Assembly (NCBI GenBank): GCA_902756345.1
Contig: CACVQR010000021.1
Coordinates: 1-43,790, forward strand
DNA: 43,790 nt
From: Fibrobacter succinogenes
GTDB lineage: Bacteria > Fibrobacterota > Fibrobacteria > Fibrobacterales > Fibrobacteraceae
Direction: 5' to 3'
Under the pieces are notes generated by a model that saw only the letters and a list, made by a program, of their open reading frames with translations, was not told where the DNA came from and made no database searches. The translations under genes were made by a program, and so were the position numbers. Below are positions 32,602 to 42,739 of this stretch, in pieces. The first letter of the stretch is position 1. The number at the start of each line of letters is the position of its first letter.

Positions 32602-33000
32602 ATGAAGAAGATAATCACATACGGTACTTTTGATCTTTTACATTACGGCCATATTAACCTTCTGAAGCGTGCCAAGGCTTTAGGCGATTATCTTATTGTA
32701 GCCCTTTCCACTGACGAATTCAACTGGAACCAAAAACAGAAAAAATGCTACTTCAGCTACGAGAAGCGTAAGCAGCTCCTGGAAGCCGTGCGCTACGTGG
32801 ACCTCGTGATTCCCGAAGAAAGCTGGGACCAGAAGAAAACGGACGTCAAGGAATACCACGTAGATACTTTTGTGATGGGCGATGACTGGAAAGGAAAATT
32901 CGATTTCCTTAAAGATTCCTGCGAGGTGGTTTATTTGCCCCGCACGCCGGAAATCAGCACGACCCAAATCAAAAAAGATCTGGAAACTTTAAAGAAATAG
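32602..33000 (+). CDS. tagD: Glycerol-3-phosphate cytidylyltransferase
   Basis: The 132-residue product is a compact TagD-type enzyme: [18 protein letters not shown] with the nucleotide-binding HxGH near residues 16-19, [14 protein letters not shown], and [12 protein letters not shown], the signature that binds the CTP phosphates. It joins CTP and glycerol-3-phosphate to CDP-glycerol in the cytoplasm. In Gram-positive cells this feeds teichoic acid. In a Gram-negative setting it feeds glycerol-phosphate groups on capsule or O-antigen. A related choline- or ethanolamine-phosphate cytidylyltransferase is less likely given the small size. It heads the plus-strand operon of the locus. Confidence 0.9.
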
Positions 33001-33010
33001 TAGACTTACA

Positions 33011-34267
33011 ATGAAGCGTCCATCCCCGAAGCTTCTATTGTTTTTCGTTCTTCTTTTTTTAGCATTTATTGTCAATTCTTGCGGTACCTGGGGCGAAAAT
33101 TCATCGCAGGCCGCCGATTCGGCGTATTTACCGCTGGACGATTCAGAACATCCTTACGCAGGATTGCCGCGCCTGGTGATTGAAACAGAGAATTTTAGGC
33201 AAATTAACAACAAAGAGACGAAAGTCCCGGCACGACTGCAGTTCTATGGCGAGAACAAGCCTTCTAGCGAAATTCTGGACCTCACGATTAAGGGGCGGGG
33301 CAATTCCAGTTTTGTCATGACCAAATACGGCTACAAGATCAAACTTGCCGAAAAAGAGTCCATGCTCGGAATGCCCAAGGACAAGGAATGGGACTTGATT
33401 TCCAACTTTCGAGACAGATCCATATTGCGCAACTACATCACCTACCAGCTTGCGGGAATCCTCGGCGACGAATACTTTCCGAAGGGCAAGTTCATAGAGC
33501 TATACCTGAACCGGCAATACCTGGGAATCTACCTTCTGGTCGAACACGTCAAGGTTTCCAAGAGCCGCGTCGACATTCCCAAAAGCGATTCCAGCTTTCT
33601 TTTCGAAAAGACCTCGGCCACCACGACAGACGGAGCCCTGTTCACATCCGGTCTCGGCTACATTTTCAAGTTCCGCCAGCCCAAGGAACCAAGCGAAGAA
33701 TCCAGGGCCCTTCTCGAAAACCACATTGACGATTTCGAGAATTTTCTGCAATCCAAAAACATTTATAAACTTGACCTCATCGGGAATTGGATTGACATCG
33801 ATGACTTTGTAAGGTATTACTGGATTCAGGAATTCACGAAGAATATCGATGGACACAGGCGAAGCATTTTTATTACCTGGGAAACGGACAGCGTCCTGAA
33901 AATGGGCCCCGTATGGGACTTTGACCTAGGCTACGGAAATTCATTAGACGTTAAAAGCGGACCCGAGGGGTGGCTGATTCGCAAGTACGGATGGAACCGC
34001 TATTTGTTCAAGAACAAGGATTACGAATCGCGGGTAAGGGAATACTGGAAAAAGAACCGCTCCGCATTTGTCGCGACCCTGGATTCCATTGATTCCATGT
34101 CCGAAAAACTGGAGAGAGCATCGGCAAACGAATTCAAAAAATGGCCCATTCTGGAAAACGACTCCAGGTGGCCCTTCCATGAAAAATTCGACAGCTACCA
34201 GGACGCCGTAGACGATCTAAAATCCTGGATAGAAGCGCGAATCCAGTGGGTTGACGAGAACATATAA
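33011..34267 (+). CDS. CotH-like lipoprotein
   Basis: The 418-residue product has a signal peptide ending in VNSC, a lipobox that predicts a lipidated Cys. It continues with the CotH fold: LTIKGRGNSSF, YGYKIKLAEKESMLGMPKDKEWDL, RDRSILRNYITYQLA, FIELYLNRQYLGIYLLVEHV, and WDFDLGYGN near the end. CotH of Bacillus spores is an atypical protein kinase, and many bacterial homologues are exported with unknown targets. An envelope CotH inside a polysaccharide operon is unusual. It might phosphorylate or otherwise modify an envelope protein or glycan. It follows tagD by ten bases. Confidence 0.85.
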   Translation: MKRPSPKLLLFFVLLFLAFIVNSCGTWGENSSQAADSAYLPLDDSEHPYAGLPRLVIETENFRQINNKETKVPARLQFYGENKPSSEILDLTIKGRGNSSFVMTKYGYKIKLAEKESMLGMPKDKEWDLISNFRDRSILRNYITYQLAGILGDEYFPKGKFIELYLNRQYLGIYLLVEHVKVSKSRVDIPKSDSSFLFEKTSATTTDGALFTSGLGYIFKFRQPKEPSEESRALLENHIDDFENFLQSKNIYKLDLIGNWIDIDDFVRYYWIQEFTKNIDGHRRSIFITWETDSVLKMGPVWDFDLGYGNSLDVKSGPEGWLIRKYGWNRYLFKNKDYESRVREYWKKNRSAFVATLDSIDSMSEKLERASANEFKKWPILENDSRWPFHEKFDSYQDAVDDLKSWIEARIQWVDENI

Positions 34268-34287: not shown

Positions 34288-35733
34288 ATGTCTTTGAAGC
34301 AAAAAACTTTCAAAGGCGTCATTTGGAGTGCTGTAGAAAGATTTTCTACCCAGGGCGTTCAGTTCCTGTTCGGTATTCTTTTAGCTAGACTTCTGACGCC
34401 TAACGATTACGGCATGATTGCCATGCTCACCATCTTTATGGCGGTGAGCCAAACTTTCATTGATAGCGGTTTTGGAAACGCACTCATTCGAAAGCCGGAT
34501 CGCAACGAAGCCGACAAGGCCACCGTATTCTTCTTCAATATCTTTATGGCGGCGGCCTGCTATGGCATAATCTTCTTGGGAGCGCCCTTTGTAGCCCAGT
34601 TCTACAAGATGCCGCAGCTTTCGGATATTCTCCGGATTCTCGCCATCAACCTGATTATTCAGGCCTTCGGATCAATTCAGCGATTGAATCTGACCATTGA
34701 CCTGAATTTTAAAACGCTGGCAAAGGTTTCCCTGATTGGAGCCATCGTGGGCGGCACGGCAGGCCTTATCAGCGCCTACAATGGACTTGGGGTATGGTCC
34801 CTTGTAGTCCAGCAAATGGTTACCACTTCTACGAGAGTGGTCCTGTTCTGGACTCTTGTTCACTGGCGTCCCAAGACATTTTTCAACAAGAAGTCTTTCA
34901 AGAACATGTTCGGCTTCGGTTCGAAGCTTCTCATTTCAAGCCTGATAAACACCCTGTACGAAAACATCTACGATCTAATCATCGGCAAGGTCTTTTCTGC
35001 AGGCACCCTTGGTAACTACAGCAGGGCATCCCATTTCGCCAATTTCCCGTCAAGCAACATTAACGGTATTTTCCAGAGAGTCACGTTCCCCGTTCTAAGC
35101 AAAATCCAGAACGACCATGACAAACTGAGAGTCGGATACCTGAAGTTCCTCAACATGGCCACCCTGGTCGTATTCCCGCTGATGATCGGTCTTTCGGCTG
35201 TGGCAAAGCCATTCATTCTCTTGGTTCTTACAGACAAGTGGGTCGACGCCATCCTGATTTTGCAAATCATCTGCTTTGCCCAAATGTGGTACCCGGTACA
35301 TTCTATCAACCTGAACATGCTTCAGGTTTTGGGACGATCCGACTTATTTCTGAAGCTGGAAATTATCAAGAAAATTGTAGGAATCATTATTCTTTGCGTA
35401 GCTATCCCTCATGGAATCATCGCCATCTGCTATAGCCAATGGGTCAGCACATGCTTTGGGCTTGTGATAAACACCTACTATTCCGGAAAATTGCTAAAAG
35501 CCGGCCTTTTGACCCAATTGAAGATGTATATTCCCACGCTTTTGAATTCCCTGGTCATGGGTGCAATTTGCATAGGCGTAACCAAGCTTCTCCCTGAACA
35601 GGAATATGCCCTGCAACTAGCACTCGGAATTACCGCAGGAGCCGTTTACTATATCGCAAGCAATTGTATATTTAACAGGGCAACAGTCAAGGAACTGCTG
35701 GAACTTTTGAATAAAAAGAAAAACAAGTCGTAG
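34288..35733 (+). CDS. Wzx-type polysaccharide flippase
   Basis: The 481-residue membrane protein has about 12-14 helices and starts KTFKGVIWSAVERFSTQGVQFLFGILLARLL, the typical start of WzxC/MOP-superfamily exporters. LARLLTPNDYGMIAML and the DSGFGNALIRKPD segment are characteristic. It should flip lipid-linked glycan units across the inner membrane for capsule, O-antigen or exopolysaccharide. It lies between the CotH-like gene and the aminotransferase gene, with spacings of 20 and 6 bases. The matching polymerase is not in the window. Confidence 0.9.
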   Translation: MSLKQKTFKGVIWSAVERFSTQGVQFLFGILLARLLTPNDYGMIAMLTIFMAVSQTFIDSGFGNALIRKPDRNEADKATVFFFNIFMAAACYGIIFLGAPFVAQFYKMPQLSDILRILAINLIIQAFGSIQRLNLTIDLNFKTLAKVSLIGAIVGGTAGLISAYNGLGVWSLVVQQMVTTSTRVVLFWTLVHWRPKTFFNKKSFKNMFGFGSKLLISSLINTLYENIYDLIIGKVFSAGTLGNYSRASHFANFPSSNINGIFQRVTFPVLSKIQNDHDKLRVGYLKFLNMATLVVFPLMIGLSAVAKPFILLVLTDKWVDAILILQIICFAQMWYPVHSINLNMLQVLGRSDLFLKLEIIKKIVGIIILCVAIPHGIIAICYSQWVSTCFGLVINTYYSGKLLKAGLLTQLKMYIPTLLNSLVMGAICIGVTKLLPEQEYALQLALGITAGAVYYIASNCIFNRATVKELLELLNKKKNKS

Positions 35734-35739
35734 ATTATT

Positions 35740-36855
35740 ATGAGCGAAAATAAAACGATTACAGTCACGTCCCCCCTTCTTCCAAAATTGGAAGATTTCA
35801 TCCCGATGCTTCAGGATATTTGGGATAGAAAATGGCTGACAAACAACGGCCATTACCACAAGGAACTCGAAAAAGCTCTTGCCGATTACCTTGGTGTCCA
35901 ATACATCAGCCTTTTCACCAACGGAACGCTCCCCCTGATTACGGCCCTGCAGGCACTGCGCATTTCGGGCGAGGTAATCACGACTCCTTACAGCTTTGTG
36001 GCGACCACCCATTCCATTTGGTGGAACGGACTGAAGCCCGTGTTCGTCGACGTAGACGAAGAAACCGGAAACATCGATCCCGAAAAGATCGAGGCGGCCA
36101 TCACGCCGCACACCACGGCTATCATGCCCGTGCACGTCTACGGCACCCCCTGCAACATGAAGCGGATCCAGGAAATCGCAGACATCTACGGGCTAAAAAT
36201 TATCTACGACGCGGCCCACGCCTTCGGCGTCAGGAAGGACGGCGAGTCGGTCCTGCAGGCAGGCGACATGAGTACGCTCAGTTTCCACGCCACCAAGGTC
36301 TACAACACGGTCGAAGGCGGCGCCCTCGTCTGTCATGACGAAGCGACCAAAAAGCGTATCGACTATCTCAAGAACTTCGGCTTTGCAGGCGAAACAACGG
36401 TCGTCGCCCCGGGCATCAACAGCAAGATGGACGAAATCCGAGCCGCCTACGGTCTCTTGAACCTGAAACAAGTCGATGACGCTATCGCCAAGCGCAAGGC
36501 CACCGCCGAAAAATATCGCGCCGCCCTTAAGGACATCCCCGGCATCCGCTGCCTAAAGGATGTCGAAGGCGTTCGCCACAACTATGCGTACTTCCCGATT
36601 TTCATCAGCGATGAATACGGAATCAGCCGCGACGCCCTTTACGCCAAGCTGCAGGAACACAACATCTACGGCCGCCGCTATTTCTACCCGCTGATCAGCA
36701 CGTTCAGCGCCTACAAGGGGCTGGAATCGGCCGACCCAAAGAACTTGCCCATCGCCCATAAATTGGCCGACCAGGTGCTTTGCCTGCCCATGTTCGCAGG
36801 ACTCGACAACGAAAGCACCGACAAGATTATAGACATCGTAATCCACAAGAAATAA
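35740..36855 (+). CDS. DegT/DnrJ/EryC1 sugar aminotransferase
   Basis: The 371-residue product is a PLP enzyme of the DegT family. FTNGTLPLITAL binds the cofactor phosphate, YDAAHAFGV holds the Asp that pairs with the pyridine nitrogen, and FHATKVYNTVEGG carries the Schiff-base Lys. The segment VITTPYSFVATTHSIWWNG fits enzymes acting on dTDP-4-keto-6-deoxy-hexoses, making an amino-deoxy sugar from glutamate or glutamine. The exact sugar is uncertain. No dTDP-glucose dehydratase is in view, so the substrate must be made elsewhere. It follows the flippase gene by six bases. Confidence 0.9.
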   Translation: MSENKTITVTSPLLPKLEDFIPMLQDIWDRKWLTNNGHYHKELEKALADYLGVQYISLFTNGTLPLITALQALRISGEVITTPYSFVATTHSIWWNGLKPVFVDVDEETGNIDPEKIEAAITPHTTAIMPVHVYGTPCNMKRIQEIADIYGLKIIYDAAHAFGVRKDGESVLQAGDMSTLSFHATKVYNTVEGGALVCHDEATKKRIDYLKNFGFAGETTVVAPGINSKMDEIRAAYGLLNLKQVDDAIAKRKATAEKYRAALKDIPGIRCLKDVEGVRHNYAYFPIFISDEYGISRDALYAKLQEHNIYGRRYFYPLISTFSAYKGLESADPKNLPIAHKLADQVLCLPMFAGLDNESTDKIIDIVIHKK

Positions 36856-36872
36856 TACGGTCCTATTCACTC

Positions 36873-38171
36873 ATGGCAAAAAAGAACATACTCGTCTTCC
36901 CGTGCGGTTCCGAAATAGCCCTTGAAGTCTACAGAGCCGTAAATAACTCGACTCACTTCAATTTGATTGGAGCAAGTTCCGTCAACGATCACGGGAAATT
37001 CGTCTTCGAAAATTACGTAGACGGGATTCCCTTTATTACTTCGCCAGATTTTATTGCAAGCATCAAGAAAACGGTAAAAGACTATAGCATTGACGCAATC
37101 TACCCCGCCATGGACGCCGTTATCGAGATTCTGAAAAAAAACGAAGCGGAACTTGGCTGCAAGGTTATCGCCCCCGATGTAGAAACCACACAGATTTGCC
37201 TTTCCAAGTCAAGAACATATAAAGCTTTAGACGGGATCGTCAAAATTCCGCAGGTGTTTGCCGCGGATGAATTACTGCAAGCAGACGAAAGCGCATTCCC
37301 TGTATTTGCAAAACCCGATATCGGTTACGGAAGCCGCGGTGCAAAGAAAATTTCAAACGCAGAAGATCTCAAGGCTCACTTGGAGCAATTCCCGTCCTGC
37401 ATCCTTTCGGAATTCCTGCCGGGCAAGGAATATACGGTCGACTGTTTCACCTCAAGTAACGGGGAAATGATTTTCGCCGCAGCACGCGAACGCAGCCGCA
37501 TCATGAACGGAATCAGCGTCAACACGAAACCCGTCACGGAAAACGCAGACGAGTTCATTGAATTCGCAAAGAAAATCAATTCTGCAATCAAGTTCAACGG
37601 CGCTTGGTTTTACCAGGTCAAGCGCGACACGCACGGAGAGCTTACGCTCATGGAAATAGCAAGCCGCTTCGGCGGTTCATCTTCGCTGTTCCGCGCCCAG
37701 GGAATCAATTTCGCGCTTATGTCGCTGTTCAACGCCTTCGGAATCCCAGTTTCCATTCTCCGCAACACCTACGATGTGGAAATGGACCGCGCGCTCGACA
37801 ACAAGTACAAGCTCGGTTTAAAATACAGCGAGGTCTTTGTCGATTTCGACGACTGCATCTATCTGGAAAAGCAGTTCGTGAACGACGCACTAATGGCATA
37901 CCTATACCGTTGCGTCAACAAGGGCATTAAGATTACGATGCTTTCCAGACACGACGACGTGAAATTAGGCAAGTTGGACGACCTCCTGGACAAGCTCCGC
38001 ATTCGCCAGGTTTTCGACAGGATAATCCACTTGGATCCATCGCAAAAAAAGATCGACTACATCGACAACACCGATTCTATTTTCATCGACGACTCTTTTG
38101 CCGAACGCAAGGCCATCGCCGACAAGTTCCACATTCCCGTTTTCAGCCTAGACATGGTGGAGGCATTGTAA
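36873..38171 (+). CDS. ATP-grasp ligase fused to HAD-like domain
   Basis: The 432-residue protein begins with a pre-ATP-grasp fold (NILVFPCGSEIALEVYRAV) and an ATP-grasp region resembling carbamoyl-phosphate synthase large subunit (SKSRTYKALDG, FAKPDIGYGSRGAKKI, LSEFLPGKEYTVDCF, LMEIASRFGGSSSL). From about residue 320 a second domain carries all four HAD motifs: VFVDFDDCIY, ITMLSRHDD, SQKKIDYI and SIFIDDSFAE. The first half should form an amide or ester with ATP, perhaps adding an amino acid to an amino sugar. The second would be a phosphatase or a regulator. The start at 36873 is the first ATG after the aminotransferase gene; a longer frame would overlap that gene. The stop overlaps the next ATG (TAATG). 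Confidence 0.8.
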   Translation: MAKKNILVFPCGSEIALEVYRAVNNSTHFNLIGASSVNDHGKFVFENYVDGIPFITSPDFIASIKKTVKDYSIDAIYPAMDAVIEILKKNEAELGCKVIAPDVETTQICLSKSRTYKALDGIVKIPQVFAADELLQADESAFPVFAKPDIGYGSRGAKKISNAEDLKAHLEQFPSCILSEFLPGKEYTVDCFTSSNGEMIFAAARERSRIMNGISVNTKPVTENADEFIEFAKKINSAIKFNGAWFYQVKRDTHGELTLMEIASRFGGSSSLFRAQGINFALMSLFNAFGIPVSILRNTYDVEMDRALDNKYKLGLKYSEVFVDFDDCIYLEKQFVNDALMAYLYRCVNKGIKITMLSRHDDVKLGKLDDLLDKLRIRQVFDRIIHLDPSQKKIDYIDNTDSIFIDDSFAERKAIADKFHIPVFSLDMVEAL

Positions 38172-38935
38172 TGGAAGTTAATTTCGATATTAAACGTGTA
38201 CAGGACCGTCTTCTGGAAATGGCCAAGGCGACGGCAGCCATCCTGGAAAAGCACGATATTCCTTACCAAATTGCATTCGGGACTCTTCTCGGCGCCGTTC
38301 GCCATGGCGGCTTTATTCCTTGGGATGACGATTTCGATTTTCTGCTGTTTGACGACAGCTACGACAAGGCTACGGAAATTCTCGCTAAAGAACTCCCCTC
38401 CGACATGTTTCTTGAAGATGAAAAGACTGAACCGAAATATTTCCACGCCTGGGCTCACGTCAAGGATTTGAAAAGCGAATGCGACTGTGCGCTTTTCCCG
38501 CAGGACAACGTTTACAAGAATCACGGATTGAGCGTTGACTTGTATAAGCTCACAAAAATCAAAGCAAAGGATTTTGCCGCCTACCGTCTGGAGCAGGCCA
38601 TGTCTTATATCGATAGACGTAAGAAACTCGGATTTATCACCGAAGAAGATTACGAGAAGAAGAAGGAAGTCTTCTTGAGCGAATTTAAGGAACGTGAAGC
38701 CAAGGAAAAGATGTTAGACTCTCCGGAAAAAGAGATTCTCGCTTACCCGTTCACCTACGGCAAGCAAGAAATCAATGAAGTTTTCCCTCTAAAAAAATAC
38801 AAGTTCGAAAGCGTAGAATTCCTTGGACCGAACAATTACCACCCGCTATTAGTCTCGGAATATGGGGACTACATGCAGCTTCCCCCCGAAGAAGACAGAC
38901 ACCCACATTTCAGCAAAGTAGAATTCAACAGCTAA
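38171..38935 (+). CDS. LicD family phosphotransferase (first copy)
   Basis: The 254-residue product has the LicD core: IPYQIAFGTLLGAVRHGG then FIPWDDDFDFLLFDDSY, where GTLLG and the Asp cluster form the nucleotidyltransferase-like metal site, and HGLSVDLYKL with a further Asp. LicD of Haemophilus moves phosphocholine from CDP-choline to a sugar. Other members move ribitol-, glycerol- or phosphonate-containing groups. The donor here could be CDP-glycerol from the TagD-like enzyme or a CMP-activated phosphonate. It overlaps the ATP-grasp/HAD gene by one base, so the two are coupled. Confidence 0.9.
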   Translation: MEVNFDIKRVQDRLLEMAKATAAILEKHDIPYQIAFGTLLGAVRHGGFIPWDDDFDFLLFDDSYDKATEILAKELPSDMFLEDEKTEPKYFHAWAHVKDLKSECDCALFPQDNVYKNHGLSVDLYKLTKIKAKDFAAYRLEQAMSYIDRRKKLGFITEEDYEKKKEVFLSEFKEREAKEKMLDSPEKEILAYPFTYGKQEINEVFPLKKYKFESVEFLGPNNYHPLLVSEYGDYMQLPPEEDRHPHFSKVEFNS

Positions 38936-38944
38936 AAGAAAAAA

Positions 38945-39856
38945 ATGACGGAAGTGCAGCGAATCATAAAAAGCGGACTGCTCCCGAGCAACTTCCTAGA
39001 CGAGGAAGTCCGCTGCGAATACCTTGTCACGACCCAAATAAAAAAGATCTGGGCGATTGAGCTCGATATACTCGTGGAATTCGACCGTATATGCAAGAAA
39101 CACGGCCTTAAATATTTTCTGATGTGCGGGACGCTCCTCGGCGCCATTCGCCACAAGGGTTTCATCCCGTGGGATGACGATATCGATGTCGCAATGCCGC
39201 GCGACGATTTCAACAAGTTGAACACGCTGCAAGATGAATTCAAACACCCGTTTTTCTTGCAGACGCCGCTCACCGACAAAGAATTCGCCGGTTCACACAC
39301 TTGTATCCGCAATACGAATACAAGCGCCATCAGCCCTATCATCCGGTTCCAAAAGATGAACCACGGGCTTTTCATTGACGTTTTCGCGCTGGACCATTTT
39401 GTACCGGAAGGCGCCGAAGAGCGCTTTGCCGAAATAAACCAGCTGAATATCGAGAACGGGACGTTCATGCGGTTGACCAACCCGGAACTGAACGAGAAAA
39501 ACCGCGAGCGCGTAAAAAACTACCACAGGGACCATATCGCGGACTACAAGAGAATCCATGAAATCGCGAGCATGTTCAACGACCGCGAAACCGAAAAGCT
39601 GGCCATCCTGACATGGACCGCCGAGCCCCTAGAACAAAACGTGTGGGACGCAAAGGACTTTGACGAATCGGTGGATGTGGAATTCGAAGGTTATCGTTTC
39701 CCGGCACCCGCAGGATATCGCAACATTCTCACGCAGTTGTTCGGGAACTACATGGAATTCCCGCCTGTAGAAAAAAGAGGAGCCCAGCACAGTCAATACG
39801 TGCTGGACCCCGATACGCCCTATGCGGAATTCCTGCGCACGTTCAAGCCGCGCTAA
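38945..39856 (+). CDS. LicD family phosphotransferase (second copy)
   Basis: The 303-residue product carries the same core as its neighbour, in a more classical form: LKYFLMCGTLLGAIRHKG, FIPWDDDIDVAMPRDDF, and HGLFIDVFALDH with the distal Asp. The leading ~40 residues (KKIWAIELDILVEFDRICKKHG) form the usual N-terminal helix. It is only distantly similar to the first copy, so the two are probably not recent duplicates and may use different donors or acceptors. It is the last gene of the plus-strand operon, and its stop lies 18 bases from the end of the converging minus operon. No clear terminator separates them. Confidence 0.92.
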   Translation: MTEVQRIIKSGLLPSNFLDEEVRCEYLVTTQIKKIWAIELDILVEFDRICKKHGLKYFLMCGTLLGAIRHKGFIPWDDDIDVAMPRDDFNKLNTLQDEFKHPFFLQTPLTDKEFAGSHTCIRNTNTSAISPIIRFQKMNHGLFIDVFALDHFVPEGAEERFAEINQLNIENGTFMRLTNPELNEKNRERVKNYHRDHIADYKRIHEIASMFNDRETEKLAILTWTAEPLEQNVWDAKDFDESVDVEFEGYRFPAPAGYRNILTQLFGNYMEFPPVEKRGAQHSQYVLDPDTPYAEFLRTFKPR

Positions 39857-41000: not shown

Positions 41001-41744
41001 TTACTCCATAAGTTCGCGGACAATGTTGTAGTCCGCAACGGTGTTACAGTTGTACCAGGCATCGAACGTGACCACGTCATATTCTTCGCGGGAGAGCCTG
41101 TTGAAATACGCCTGGATAATCTCGAGGTTCGTGCCCTGAAGCTGTTTTTCGGTAAGGGATACGACGGCCTCGTGCAGCTTTTCTGCCGACTGGAACTTCC
41201 ACATCTGCGCAGAATTGAATACCGCGAGGAACGGTTCCGGAATCGTGAGCGAAGAATGGTTCGTGTCGTACAGGTAATGCGGGCGGCCATCCGTCGATAC
41301 GTAAAGCGCCACAGCCTTGTTCGAATAGATTGGTTCACGGTTTATCGTGAGCACGCTCTTCTCGCTATCGTAGACCTTCTTGAAATTTTCTTTCAAGAAA
41401 AACAGGTCGCCTTCGACGAAGGTGACATCGCCCAGTTCCTTCACGGCCTCGATGCCCTTGTACAAGCTGTAGCCCGAGCCGTAGTCCTTGAAGTGCTCGT
41501 TGTAGACAAGTTCAATCTTGTCGCCGTAGGCTTGGAGGTTTTCTTTCACATATTCTTCGAGTGCGGAATAGAGGTAGCCGCCCACGATGATGTACTTGTC
41601 GTATTCGCCGCAGTTTTTGATAAGCTGGTTCAGCAGCGCAAACTTCGGGGAATCCTTGTAATAAAGGCACTTCAGGGTTTCCTTTTCCGTGTCCCTGTTA
41701 AAGCGGGTCGCCGTACCGGCAACAGTAATTATCAGGTATTTCAT
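41001..41744 (-). CDS. LicC/PntC-like cytidylyltransferase
   Basis: The 247-residue product has a sugar-phosphate-nucleotidyltransferase-like fold: MKYLIITVAGTATRFN at the start in place of the usual AAGxGTR, then KETLKCLYYKD with the Lys that follows in the family, NEHFKDYGSGYSLYKGIEAV, and VEGDLFFLKEN with the metal-binding Asp. Such short enzymes near licD genes make CDP-choline (LicC) or CMP-aminoethylphosphonate (PntC). Because a phosphonopyruvate decarboxylase gene is in the same operon, activation of a phosphonate is the better guess. ATG 41744 overlaps the stop of the epimerase gene by four bases (ATGA). A start seven codons earlier is possible but less likely. Confidence 0.75.
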   Translation of the reverse strand: MKYLIITVAGTATRFNRDTEKETLKCLYYKDSPKFALLNQLIKNCGEYDKYIIVGGYLYSALEEYVKENLQAYGDKIELVYNEHFKDYGSGYSLYKGIEAVKELGDVTFVEGDLFFLKENFKKVYDSEKSVLTINREPIYSNKAVALYVSTDGRPHYLYDTNHSSLTIPEPFLAVFNSAQMWKFQSAEKLHEAVVSLTEKQLQGTNLEIIQAYFNRLSREEYDVVTFDAWYNCNTVADYNIVRELME

Positions 41745-42739
41745 CTTTCGATACTCTTCACGCACATTTCGAGGCCCTCGTCAAGCGAAACGACCGGTTT
41801 CCAGTGGGTACGCGTACGGATCTTGTCTGTATTGAGCAGGCGGCGTTCCGGGTCGGACTTGCGGAAACCTTCAAACTTGATTTTCACATCGTCCATGCCC
41901 ATCTTCTTCGCGATCAGTTTCACCAAATCCACAATGGAGATTTCTTCTTCGGTCGCGACGTTATAGACGGTACCGTCGAGAGCCTCGGGCGATTCTATGA
42001 GTTCCATCACGGCGCGGCAGCTGTCGATGTTGTGCAGGAACGTGCGCTTGTTGACCTTCGAATTCTCAAGCAGCGTAACTTCGGGCTTTTCGAGAAGGTT
42101 GTTGATGATGTGCGGGATAATGTGGTCCGCAAAGCGTTCATGCTTGCTGTACACGTTCGCGAAGCGGATGGAGCAGCCCTTGATCTTGCCCTTGTCCACG
42201 GCATCCTTCATGAAGAATTCCGTAAGCAACTTGCCCACCGCATAGCTTGTGCGCTGGCTGTGTTCCGCCGTCGCCATGACCAAGAAATCGTCTTCGCGGA
42301 CGCCGCCGTTCGCATTCCACGACTGCATGGAATACACTTCGGAGGTGGAGCAGTTGACGTAGGTGTCGGCACCGAGGGCGATTGCCATTTCGAGGAAGGT
42401 CTTCATCGAGATGACGTTCGTCTGGAACGTATGTTCCACTTCGTAGAAATGCTTGGTGTGGACAACCGCAGCACAGTTGATGAAAATCAGGCGGCCAGAG
42501 TACGAACCCTTGAGGCTCTTTACCTTGTCGGCAACAGCGGCCATGTGTTCGGCATTGTTGATGTCGTATTCAAAAAAGATAAAGTCATCGCGACCGACCA
42601 GGTCCTTCACCGTGTCGATGGAGCTGGCAAAGAAATTGTCGAAACCGACCACGATGTTTTCGTCTTTCAACAGCTGGTGCGATAGTTCGCTGCCGGTCAT
42701 GCCGGTGGCACCACTTATGACATACAGATTTTTCTTCAT
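41741..42739 (-). CDS. NAD-dependent epimerase/dehydratase
   Basis: The 332-residue enzyme is an extended short-chain dehydrogenase: SGATGMTGSELSHQLL holds the NAD-binding GxxGxxG, VNCSTSEVY the catalytic Ser/Thr, and TSYAVGKLLTEFF the YxxxK pair. It probably changes a nucleotide-activated sugar used for the glycan. The exact reaction is uncertain. It is not the family member represented by the remnant at 410-787: the C-terminal sequence here (HWKPVVSLDEGLEMCVKSIER) differs. It lies 13 bases after the phosphoesterase gene and is coupled to the cytidylyltransferase gene. Confidence 0.88.
   Translation of the reverse strand: MKKNLYVISGATGMTGSELSHQLLKDENIVVGFDNFFASSIDTVKDLVGRDDFIFFEYDINNAEHMAAVADKVKSLKGSYSGRLIFINCAAVVHTKHFYEVEHTFQTNVISMKTFLEMAIALGADTYVNCSTSEVYSMQSWNANGGVREDDFLVMATAEHSQRTSYAVGKLLTEFFMKDAVDKGKIKGCSIRFANVYSKHERFADHIIPHIINNLLEKPEVTLLENSKVNKRTFLHNIDSCRAVMELIESPEALDGTVYNVATEEEISIVDLVKLIAKKMGMDDVKIKFEGFRKSDPERRLLNTDKIRTRTHWKPVVSLDEGLEMCVKSIER

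Follow-up and report, generated by a model that had tools for sequence, protein, structure and literature searches.

A recurring ATP-grasp/HAD fusion protein encoded beside a DegT sugar aminotransferase, a candidate enzyme of surface-glycan decoration

An ATP-grasp gene has been linked to the decoration of an amino sugar in C. difficile. According to the available text of two reports, the Fuc3N of the type B flagellin bears an acyl chain of glycine followed by alanine and taurine, mutation of the ATP-grasp gene CDR20291_0245 leaves only the core trisaccharide, with the terminal sugar gone, and a gene for an FdtB-like aminotransferase lies in the same locus (PMC5207246, PMC5207245). As far as that text goes, the mutant shows genetically that this gene has a part in adding an amino-acid cap to an amino sugar. 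Compared by description and not by sequence, CDR20291_0245-0247 shares with the locus studied here an ATP-grasp gene (PF13535) and a sugar aminotransferase. It differs in its FemAB-like and cyclodeaminase-like partners, in an aminotransferase of the FdtB-like (C3) kind and in that the available text names no HAD domain.

Other relatives are known from profiles and structures. The ATP-grasp part of our protein is related by profile and fold to PF15632, PRK12767 and the structure 2pn1; we know of no assigned function for PRK12767 proteins or 2pn1. The latter (331 aa) differs from the fusion in having no HAD part and an EIN at the metal site, where the fusion has EIA or EIS. Profile similarity extends to the amino-acid ligases PylC and BL00235, whose gene neighbours we take to be unlike those of the fusion and which presumably have no HAD part. 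A HAD domain fused to another enzyme is found, as here, in MtlD (mannitol-1-phosphate dehydrogenase/phosphatase) and in drimenol synthase, where it removes a phosphate from the product of its partner; there the HAD domain is joined to a dehydrogenase and to a terpene cyclase, respectively, in contrast to the ligase described here.

Here, we analyse a gene of Fibrobacter succinogenes that joins an ATP-grasp domain to a HAD domain. It lies on a stretch of 43,790 nucleotides (the window), which is one whole contig of a 3.36-Mb genome. We found no description of such a fusion in the literature searched (most subscription journals, the 2009 amidoligase paper and the 2012 Ter paper lay outside it, and a prior mention is possible there), nor is it described in the available portions of PMC5207246, PMC5207245, PMC2824669, PMC7824862 and PMC11237513. 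To this extent the first-pass annotation, made from the sequence alone, was right in knowing no described enzyme of exactly this form, and the recurring gene order around the fusion is the new point.

We propose, with a probability of about one half, that the protein is a bifunctional enzyme of surface-glycan synthesis, in which the ligase would acylate an amine installed by the DegT aminotransferase, the HAD part would remove a phosphate and the product of the next gene would cap a hydroxyl. If true, a widespread cassette becomes readable as aminotransferase, ligase-phosphatase and swap-in tailoring enzyme, and N-acylated amino sugars are predicted in the surface glycans of rumen bacteria, bacilli, candidate-phyla bacteria and large phages. 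The proposal would also give a test for a HAD subfamily that stands outside Pfam and was met in our searches only in fusion-sized frames, and it offers a concrete route to the role of many "carbamoyl phosphate synthase-like" ATP-grasp genes in glycan loci.

Architecture of the fusion protein

The frame opens with an ATG at 36873 and closes with a TAA at 38169-38171. An alternative TTG start would give 463 aa and runs into the aminotransferase gene; since the ATG of relatives lies one to three residues ahead of a shared KKN, the start at 36873 is supported. The product is a single chain made of an ATP-grasp part and a HAD part that appears to be capless (Table 1). Conservation was assessed in an alignment of 66 members, the others being 35-81% identical to the window protein, and the structure model of the whole fusion built from these members reached a mean pLDDT of 96.4 and a pTM of 0.93. 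Frame, profiles, fold and motifs thus agree with the earlier claim that one protein carries an ATP-grasp domain and a HAD domain with all four motifs.

Table 1. Positions of the fusion gene, its parts and its neighbours in the window.
Feature	Position	Strand	Evidence
Glycerol-3-phosphate cytidylyltransferase	32602..33000	+	TIGR01518 215.6 bits, cut-off 165.4
CotH-kinase-family protein, same gene run	33011..34267	+	PF08757 1.8e-36
Wzx-type flippase	34288..35733	+	PF13440 6.5e-99
DegT/DnrJ sugar aminotransferase, DesI-like, directly upstream of fusion	35740..36855	+	PF01041 4.3e-101
ATP-grasp/HAD fusion gene, 432 aa	36873..38171	+	open frame; similar start position in relatives
ATP-grasp part with its N-terminal region, aa 1-315	36873..37817	+	PF15632, PF13535, PF02655; structure match 2pn1
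HAD part, read as capless, aa 316-432 (117 residues)	37818..38168	+	fold match of lone model; four motifs conserved
HAD motif I, D324-F-D-D-C (nucleophile D324, D326)	37842..37856	+	D324 66/66, D326 65/66
HAD motif II, S358	37944..37946	+	T 43, S 23 of 66
HAD motif III, K393	38049..38051	+	K 66/66
HAD motif IV, D406-D407	38088..38093	+	D406 65/66; 407 is D in 62, N in 4
LicD phosphotransferase 1	38171..38935	+	PF04991 4.9e-27; one-base overlap with fusion stop codon
LicD phosphotransferase 2	38945..39856	+	PF04991 1.8e-43
DUF6564 nucleotidyltransferase	41001..41765	-	PF20202 3.7e-93; weakly like LicC (1jyk 2.2e-4)

In Pfam searches, the window protein matched PF15632 (ATPgrasp_Ter) at 1.4e-17 together with PF13535 and PF02655, all three above cut-off, and PF15632 was matched by 66 of 66 members at 0.001. 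The match to NCBIfam PRK12767 ("carbamoyl phosphate synthase-like", 8.5e-32) lies far below every curated cut-off of that model, with 110.4 bits at best against the 390 set for equivalogs; PylC (TIGR03909) likewise stays under its equivalog cut-off (43.1 vs 248.3 bits). Structurally, the model of residues 1-309 fitted best to 2pn1, which bears the title "carbamoylphosphate synthase large subunit" (Z 30.1, rmsd 2.2, 280 residues). The first-pass annotation had assigned the domain to the carbamoyl-phosphate-synthase type of ATP-grasp, and this holds in the sense of ATP-grasp families over cut-off, a PRK12767 match below its cut-offs and the fold of 2pn1.

Biotin carboxylases follow at 29.6, within 1 Z of 2pn1, and PurK at 28.5; PylC is also listed. 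The first two matches, as well as an EIAPR motif like that of PurK, speak for a PurK/CPS-type carboxylation or carbamoylation, in which activated bicarbonate would yield a carbamate or carbamoyl group on the sugar amine and the HAD part would dephosphorylate carboxyphosphate or a downstream intermediate. We regard this as very unlikely: the PDB sequences found with the family profile below 1e-5 were 2pn1, the L-amino acid ligase BL00235, PylC and two VanA chains, with no carboxylase among them, and carbamates are unstable without a further step.

Part of the case for the preferred amide-forming reaction is the ATP-grasp active site, where nine residues (K112, K147, E186, D190, R205, R207, Q248, E261 and R265) show no variation across the 66 members. 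They include both the pair of nucleotide-binding lysines and the acidic/polar metal site of an ATP-grasp enzyme, which we take to be K112 and K147, and Q248 and E261, respectively. The Asn of the ExN motif, two residues after E261 and present in 2pn1, is replaced by Ala in 59 and by Ser in 7 of the 66 members, a change that, judging from the residues, could alter metal binding. Since PurK and PurT, both active, are likewise without this Asn, we read the change as a mark of the clade and not as proof of inactivity.

The HAD part was recognised by its fold. Pfam gave no HAD match in the window protein (0 families for the domain), and the HAD parts of 32 members returned 17 weak, mostly unrelated families, with PF08282 in one member (0.0033) and PF03767 in another (0.093). 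As the HAD profile found nothing significant among PDB sequences either (best 0.24), a fold search was needed. Modelled alone (pLDDT 96.8), the domain matched HAD structures with a Z of up to 13.8 (VIA; rmsd 2.3 over 112 residues), MtlD and drimenol synthase being among the matches, and the best Foldseek hit was MDP-1 (1.7e-5). We infer a capless domain because the secondary structure of the model shows no room for a cap. All four motifs, strictly read, are present in 64 of 66 members, the window protein included; the exceptions are L068 and L012. A chance HAD call, which we had considered, is ruled out by the structure and by this conservation. The motifs suggest that the domain is catalytically competent and conserved as a catalyst; that it removes a phosphate from an intermediate, as claimed earlier, is conjecture.

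Distribution and gene order

In the window, the fusion belongs to a same-strand run encoding a glycerol-3-phosphate cytidylyltransferase, a CotH protein, a flippase, the DegT aminotransferase, the fusion itself and two LicD proteins. It indeed follows a sugar aminotransferase, as had been noted, with 17 bases between the DegT stop and the fusion start. The best NCBIfam match of this DegT is DesI (TIGR04427, 1.1e-90), below cut-off (304.6 vs 650 bits), and its best PDB sequence is 2po3 (1.3e-64), which we take to be DesI; given the score under the cut-off, action at C4 of a dTDP sugar is likely rather than shown. A dTDP-glucose 4,6-dehydratase above cut-off is encoded in the same genome. The DUF6564 protein, weakly similar to the phosphocholine cytidylyltransferase LicC, is a possible source of the donor for LicD, and this similarity, together with the two LicD genes, suggests a CDP-activated decoration. 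Ter genes were not found among the ten window genes scanned with Pfam. Phosphonate decoration was considered because PEP mutase and phosphonopyruvate decarboxylase occur in the loci of some relatives (clusters c11 and c15; tested copies over cut-off); it is not part of the window case, as no PEP mutase was found in the window's own genome at 1e-10. The window epimerase (41741-42739) has relatives elsewhere in this genome, one of them (G000:C24:448-1413) scoring similarly and having a frame of equal length (339 aa).

Among 100 relatives of the window's genome, 18 match at 1e-10. Judged by identity and frame, the fusion is present in 12 of the 61 genomes of the genus (its own included, many incomplete) and absent from 39 relative genomes outside the genus, in a set in which many genomes are incomplete. 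A scan of species genomes yielded 149 relatives, of which the best 80 by similarity to the two-domain query were kept; the other 69 may be HAD-less. The HAD part is found by tblastn in 80 of the 80 kept loci, which is partly a matter of selection because the query contained it. By their titles, these loci span Fibrobacter, Treponema, Bacteroidota, bacilli, Clostridia, Pseudomonadota, candidate phyla, archaea and others. The closest among the best 80 of 149 are Fibrobacter MAGs, whose protein is 88% identical; outside that genus, the highest identities (67-71%) are those of MAGs of Treponema, Salinivirgaceae and Bacteroidales, some of them from rumen. Two Cupriavidus metallidurans replicons, among 37 plasmid records with any match, carry a relative of 34.5% identity over the whole length, and a collection of phage records gave one weak partial match. 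The ATP-grasp/HAD fusion is a family that recurs across many bacteria, and the search for the same fusion and its neighbours, named as a check by the first-pass annotation, has thus returned it well beyond the window.

The HAD domain was also searched for by itself with its profile in 308 distinct genomes, made up of 13 known carriers and 296 genomes of one phylum, one being common to both. It was found in 14 of the 308, always in fusion-sized frames (423-452 aa), with at most 15 candidates scored per genome, so that a few weak copies could be missed. Its presence in 2 of the 296 genomes of the one phylum indicates that the fusion gene is accessory there. These results bear on a simpler idea, in which a plain amino-acid ligase joins an ordinary amino acid to the amino sugar and the HAD part only disposes of phosphorylated compounds that are inhibitory or misdirected, or drives the reaction forward by dephosphorylating a by-product. 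Amino-acid ligases are among the closest profile matches, and glycine and alanine are the acyl groups of the C. difficile precedent, as far as its available text tells. However, such a repair role fails to predict a HAD domain that stands in fusion-sized frames alone, as in 14 of 14 carrier genomes, and we consider this idea unlikely.

The steadiest neighbour of the fusion is DegT, on which the proposed amino-sugar acylation builds. By tblastn, DegT is present in 69 of the 80 loci; in 41 of 80 it is on the same strand and no more than 160 bases away, against about one expected under uniform placement with random strand, a null that ignores operon structure. Six of the 11 loci that miss it are on pieces below 13 kb, and the remaining five (L039, L044, L053, L074 and L094) are longer. 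When the loci were grouped into 39 clusters at 60% identity, an adjacent DegT was the commonest state in 16 clusters, and 5 clusters were without DegT. Neighbour genes were called by a longest-ORF picker that misses some (among them the DegT of L019 and L020 and the fusion of L021); DegT totals are therefore taken from tblastn and positions from the picker, which placed DegT at -1 in 16 of 37 dereplicated loci (one per cluster). Loci without a gene at a given offset drop out of these counts, leaving 77 of 80 at +1 and at -1.

Directly downstream, three tailoring classes prevail. Over all loci, the +1 gene encodes a LicD in 20, a methyltransferase in 10 and a pyruvyltransferase in 8, plus 2 more pyruvyltransferases by Pfam, which makes 40 of 77. 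Elsewhere the same classes, which were picked after the +1 genes had been viewed, account for 30 of 603 genes, a number to which the second and third LicD of Fibrobacter add. After dereplication, the figures are 21 of 38 at +1 versus 6 of 314 for the remaining eleven positions between -6 and +6. The two single pyruvyltransferases were added by Pfam on +1 genes only, and without them +1 falls to 38 of 77 and 19 of 38. The whole set of DegT (-1), fusion and tailoring gene (+1) is complete in 24 of the 80 loci (13 of the 39 clusters); the order is recurring, not universal. LicD is one of several exchangeable downstream genes and hence not a fixed part: the coupling to LicD reported earlier is right for the window, where the two genes overlap by one base, and does not carry over to the family, with LicD at +1 in only 20 of 80 loci.

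Methyltransferases among the downstream neighbours are compatible with an anthrose-like pathway, anthrose combining a C4 amide with a ring O-methyl group. The tailoring would then take place on ring hydroxyls of the amino sugar, the acyl group would be a simple one and the HAD part would act on a sugar phosphate. By itself, however, such a pathway leaves three chemically different tailoring genes right after the fusion unexplained, and we judge it quite unlikely.

The cassette of aminotransferase, fusion and tailoring gene that we favour was also examined by similarity-matrix tests between the fusion and its partners, all of which ignore shared ancestry. The result is supportive for LicD (rho 0.84, p 0.005, n=9) and weak for DegT (rho 0.28, permutation p 0.021, n=34); the values were 0.23 for the GT2 cluster c2 (p 0.104, n=23), 0.01 for the flippase (p 0.452, n=9) and a negative rho of 0.14 for the RfbB-like protein (p 0.668, n=11). 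Bacillus-type loci differ, with the order RfbA, RfbB, glycerophosphotransferase, fusion, DegT, glycosyltransferase. The two Rfb genes of these bacilli lie next to the fusion and a DesI-like DegT, the RfbB of L076 and the RfbA of L096 scoring above cut-off. The best PDB sequence for the Bacillus DegT partner is 2po3 (4.5e-59); for that of a Saccharibacteria MAG it is 7b0d (1.9e-50), followed by 2po3 (1.2e-49).

Some loci show further particularities. L084 and L074 were considered as loci resembling that of C. difficile type B and were dropped, the gene after the L074 fusion being NeuB (over cut-off). Two MAGs of Moranbacteria type encode a nucleotidyltransferase-HAD fusion directly upstream of the ATP-grasp/HAD fusion (L069:5188-6723, with Hydrolase_6, and L070:7450-8988). 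At L182:7075-8034 and L098:8052-9014, a protein of about 320 aa encoded immediately ahead of the fusion reads like an atypical PLP aminotransferase; neither copy gave a Pfam match at the limits used. A class-II aldolase is encoded near the fusion at L041:7999-12162 and from L044:5068 (by Pfam in L044), and L041 also has a xylulokinase-type sugar kinase (under cut-off) and a nucleotidyltransferase there. The same neighbourhood includes a gene of the iron alcohol dehydrogenase cluster, assigned by Pfam in another member, L088. From their annotation, these genes perhaps make an unusual polyol phosphate.

A second fusion was found in another genome of the genus (L181:6382-7968, minus strand, identical with L013 and L127). 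It comprises 528 aa with a PylC-like N-terminus, ATPgrasp_Ter and HAD_2, adjoins a bacterial sugar transferase and lies near a LegC-like aminotransferase and a gene read as LicD. It differs from the window fusion in a Pfam-recognised HAD (HAD_2) and an intact ExN site. That a related ligase is here combined with another kind of HAD suggests that such a pairing arose twice.

Proposed function

Amino-sugar acylation is the likeliest job of the fusion, with putative substrates as follows. Judging from its position next to the fusion, DegT would put an amine on a keto-sugar nucleotide, most likely at C4 of dTDP-4-keto-6-deoxyglucose. The ATP-grasp part would then use ATP to convert a carboxylic acid to an acyl phosphate and pass it to the amine as an amide, as fold, residues and context suggest. 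Third, the HAD part would cut a phosphate ester, most plausibly one on the acyl group of the ligation product or on the donor. Finally, going by the gene order, the next gene product (LicD here, a methyltransferase or pyruvyltransferase elsewhere) would cap a hydroxyl of the product, and the flippase would move the finished glycan unit out.

We infer amide formation on the DegT-installed amine because the ligase is of the carboxylate-amine type and DegT is its steadiest neighbour. The first-pass annotation had proposed ligation of an amino acid to an amino sugar; its acylated amine gains support from the DegT context (69 of 80 loci, 41 adjacent vs about one) and from the profile matches to amino-acid ligases, and the amino acid as donor stays a conjecture. 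Two observations suggest that the phosphate is carried by the ligase's product or donor: the two domains are kept in one chain, as in MtlD and drimenol synthase, and the unrelated downstream genes could all modify hydroxyls that a phosphatase might expose. LicD proteins, pyruvyltransferases and O-methyltransferases can modify hydroxyls. By analogy with anthrose, the tailoring enzymes could equally act on the sugar ring.

More tentatively, and with low confidence, the three activities may be thought of as ligating, unmasking and decorating. The acid joined to the sugar amine would be a hydroxy acid in phosphorylated form, for instance 3-phosphoglycerate or phosphoserine, the HAD part would remove the phosphate and so free the hydroxyls of the acyl group, and an interchangeable LicD, methyltransferase or pyruvyltransferase would cap them. 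Such a cassette would move among bacteria, archaea and giant phages, and the phages would employ it to alter their own glycans or those of the host.

Fusion genes on viral contigs

Scanning viral contigs with the whole protein gave 11 loci, of which 5 have the HAD part, 1 is cut at the contig end and 5 are ATP-grasp only. The HAD part as query gave 21 loci on contigs of up to 527 kb; 19 were read, L170 and L171 being left out because they lie on contigs already met with the relatives of L169. Sixteen viral frames run the full length of the fusion and comprise 14 distinct sequences; some of them are on contigs of the first scan. L161, at a contig edge, lacks its start; L177 is a fragment, likewise at an edge; and L180 is a partial frame of 78 residues.

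A DegT of half size (about 210 residues) lies directly upstream of the fusion at L162, L165 and L168/L178 and, with one to several genes between, at L163, L169, L172 and L179; two tested copies matched PF01041 at 3.7e-16 and 4.9e-16. L160 has a DegT of 328 residues beside the fusion on the opposite strand (8.8e-13). A methyltransferase of the bacterial clusters is found at most two genes from the fusion at L160, L161, L162, L165, L166, L168/L178, L175 and L179. DegT is missing from several viral loci, and L164 (which ends just past the fusion), L167, L174 and L176 have neither DegT nor methyltransferase. At L174, a terminase-domain match (5.7e-7) in the gene that follows the fusion speaks for a phage origin. 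In its available part, a survey of jumbo phages mentions other ATP-grasp families and not DegT (PMC7824862). Several viral contigs carry the set of DegT, fusion and tailoring gene, with the DegT at half size. This short form (L165:6413-7051, L162:6447-7073, L168:5752-6411, L179:6242-6874 and others) apparently lacks the C-terminal part of sugar aminotransferases.
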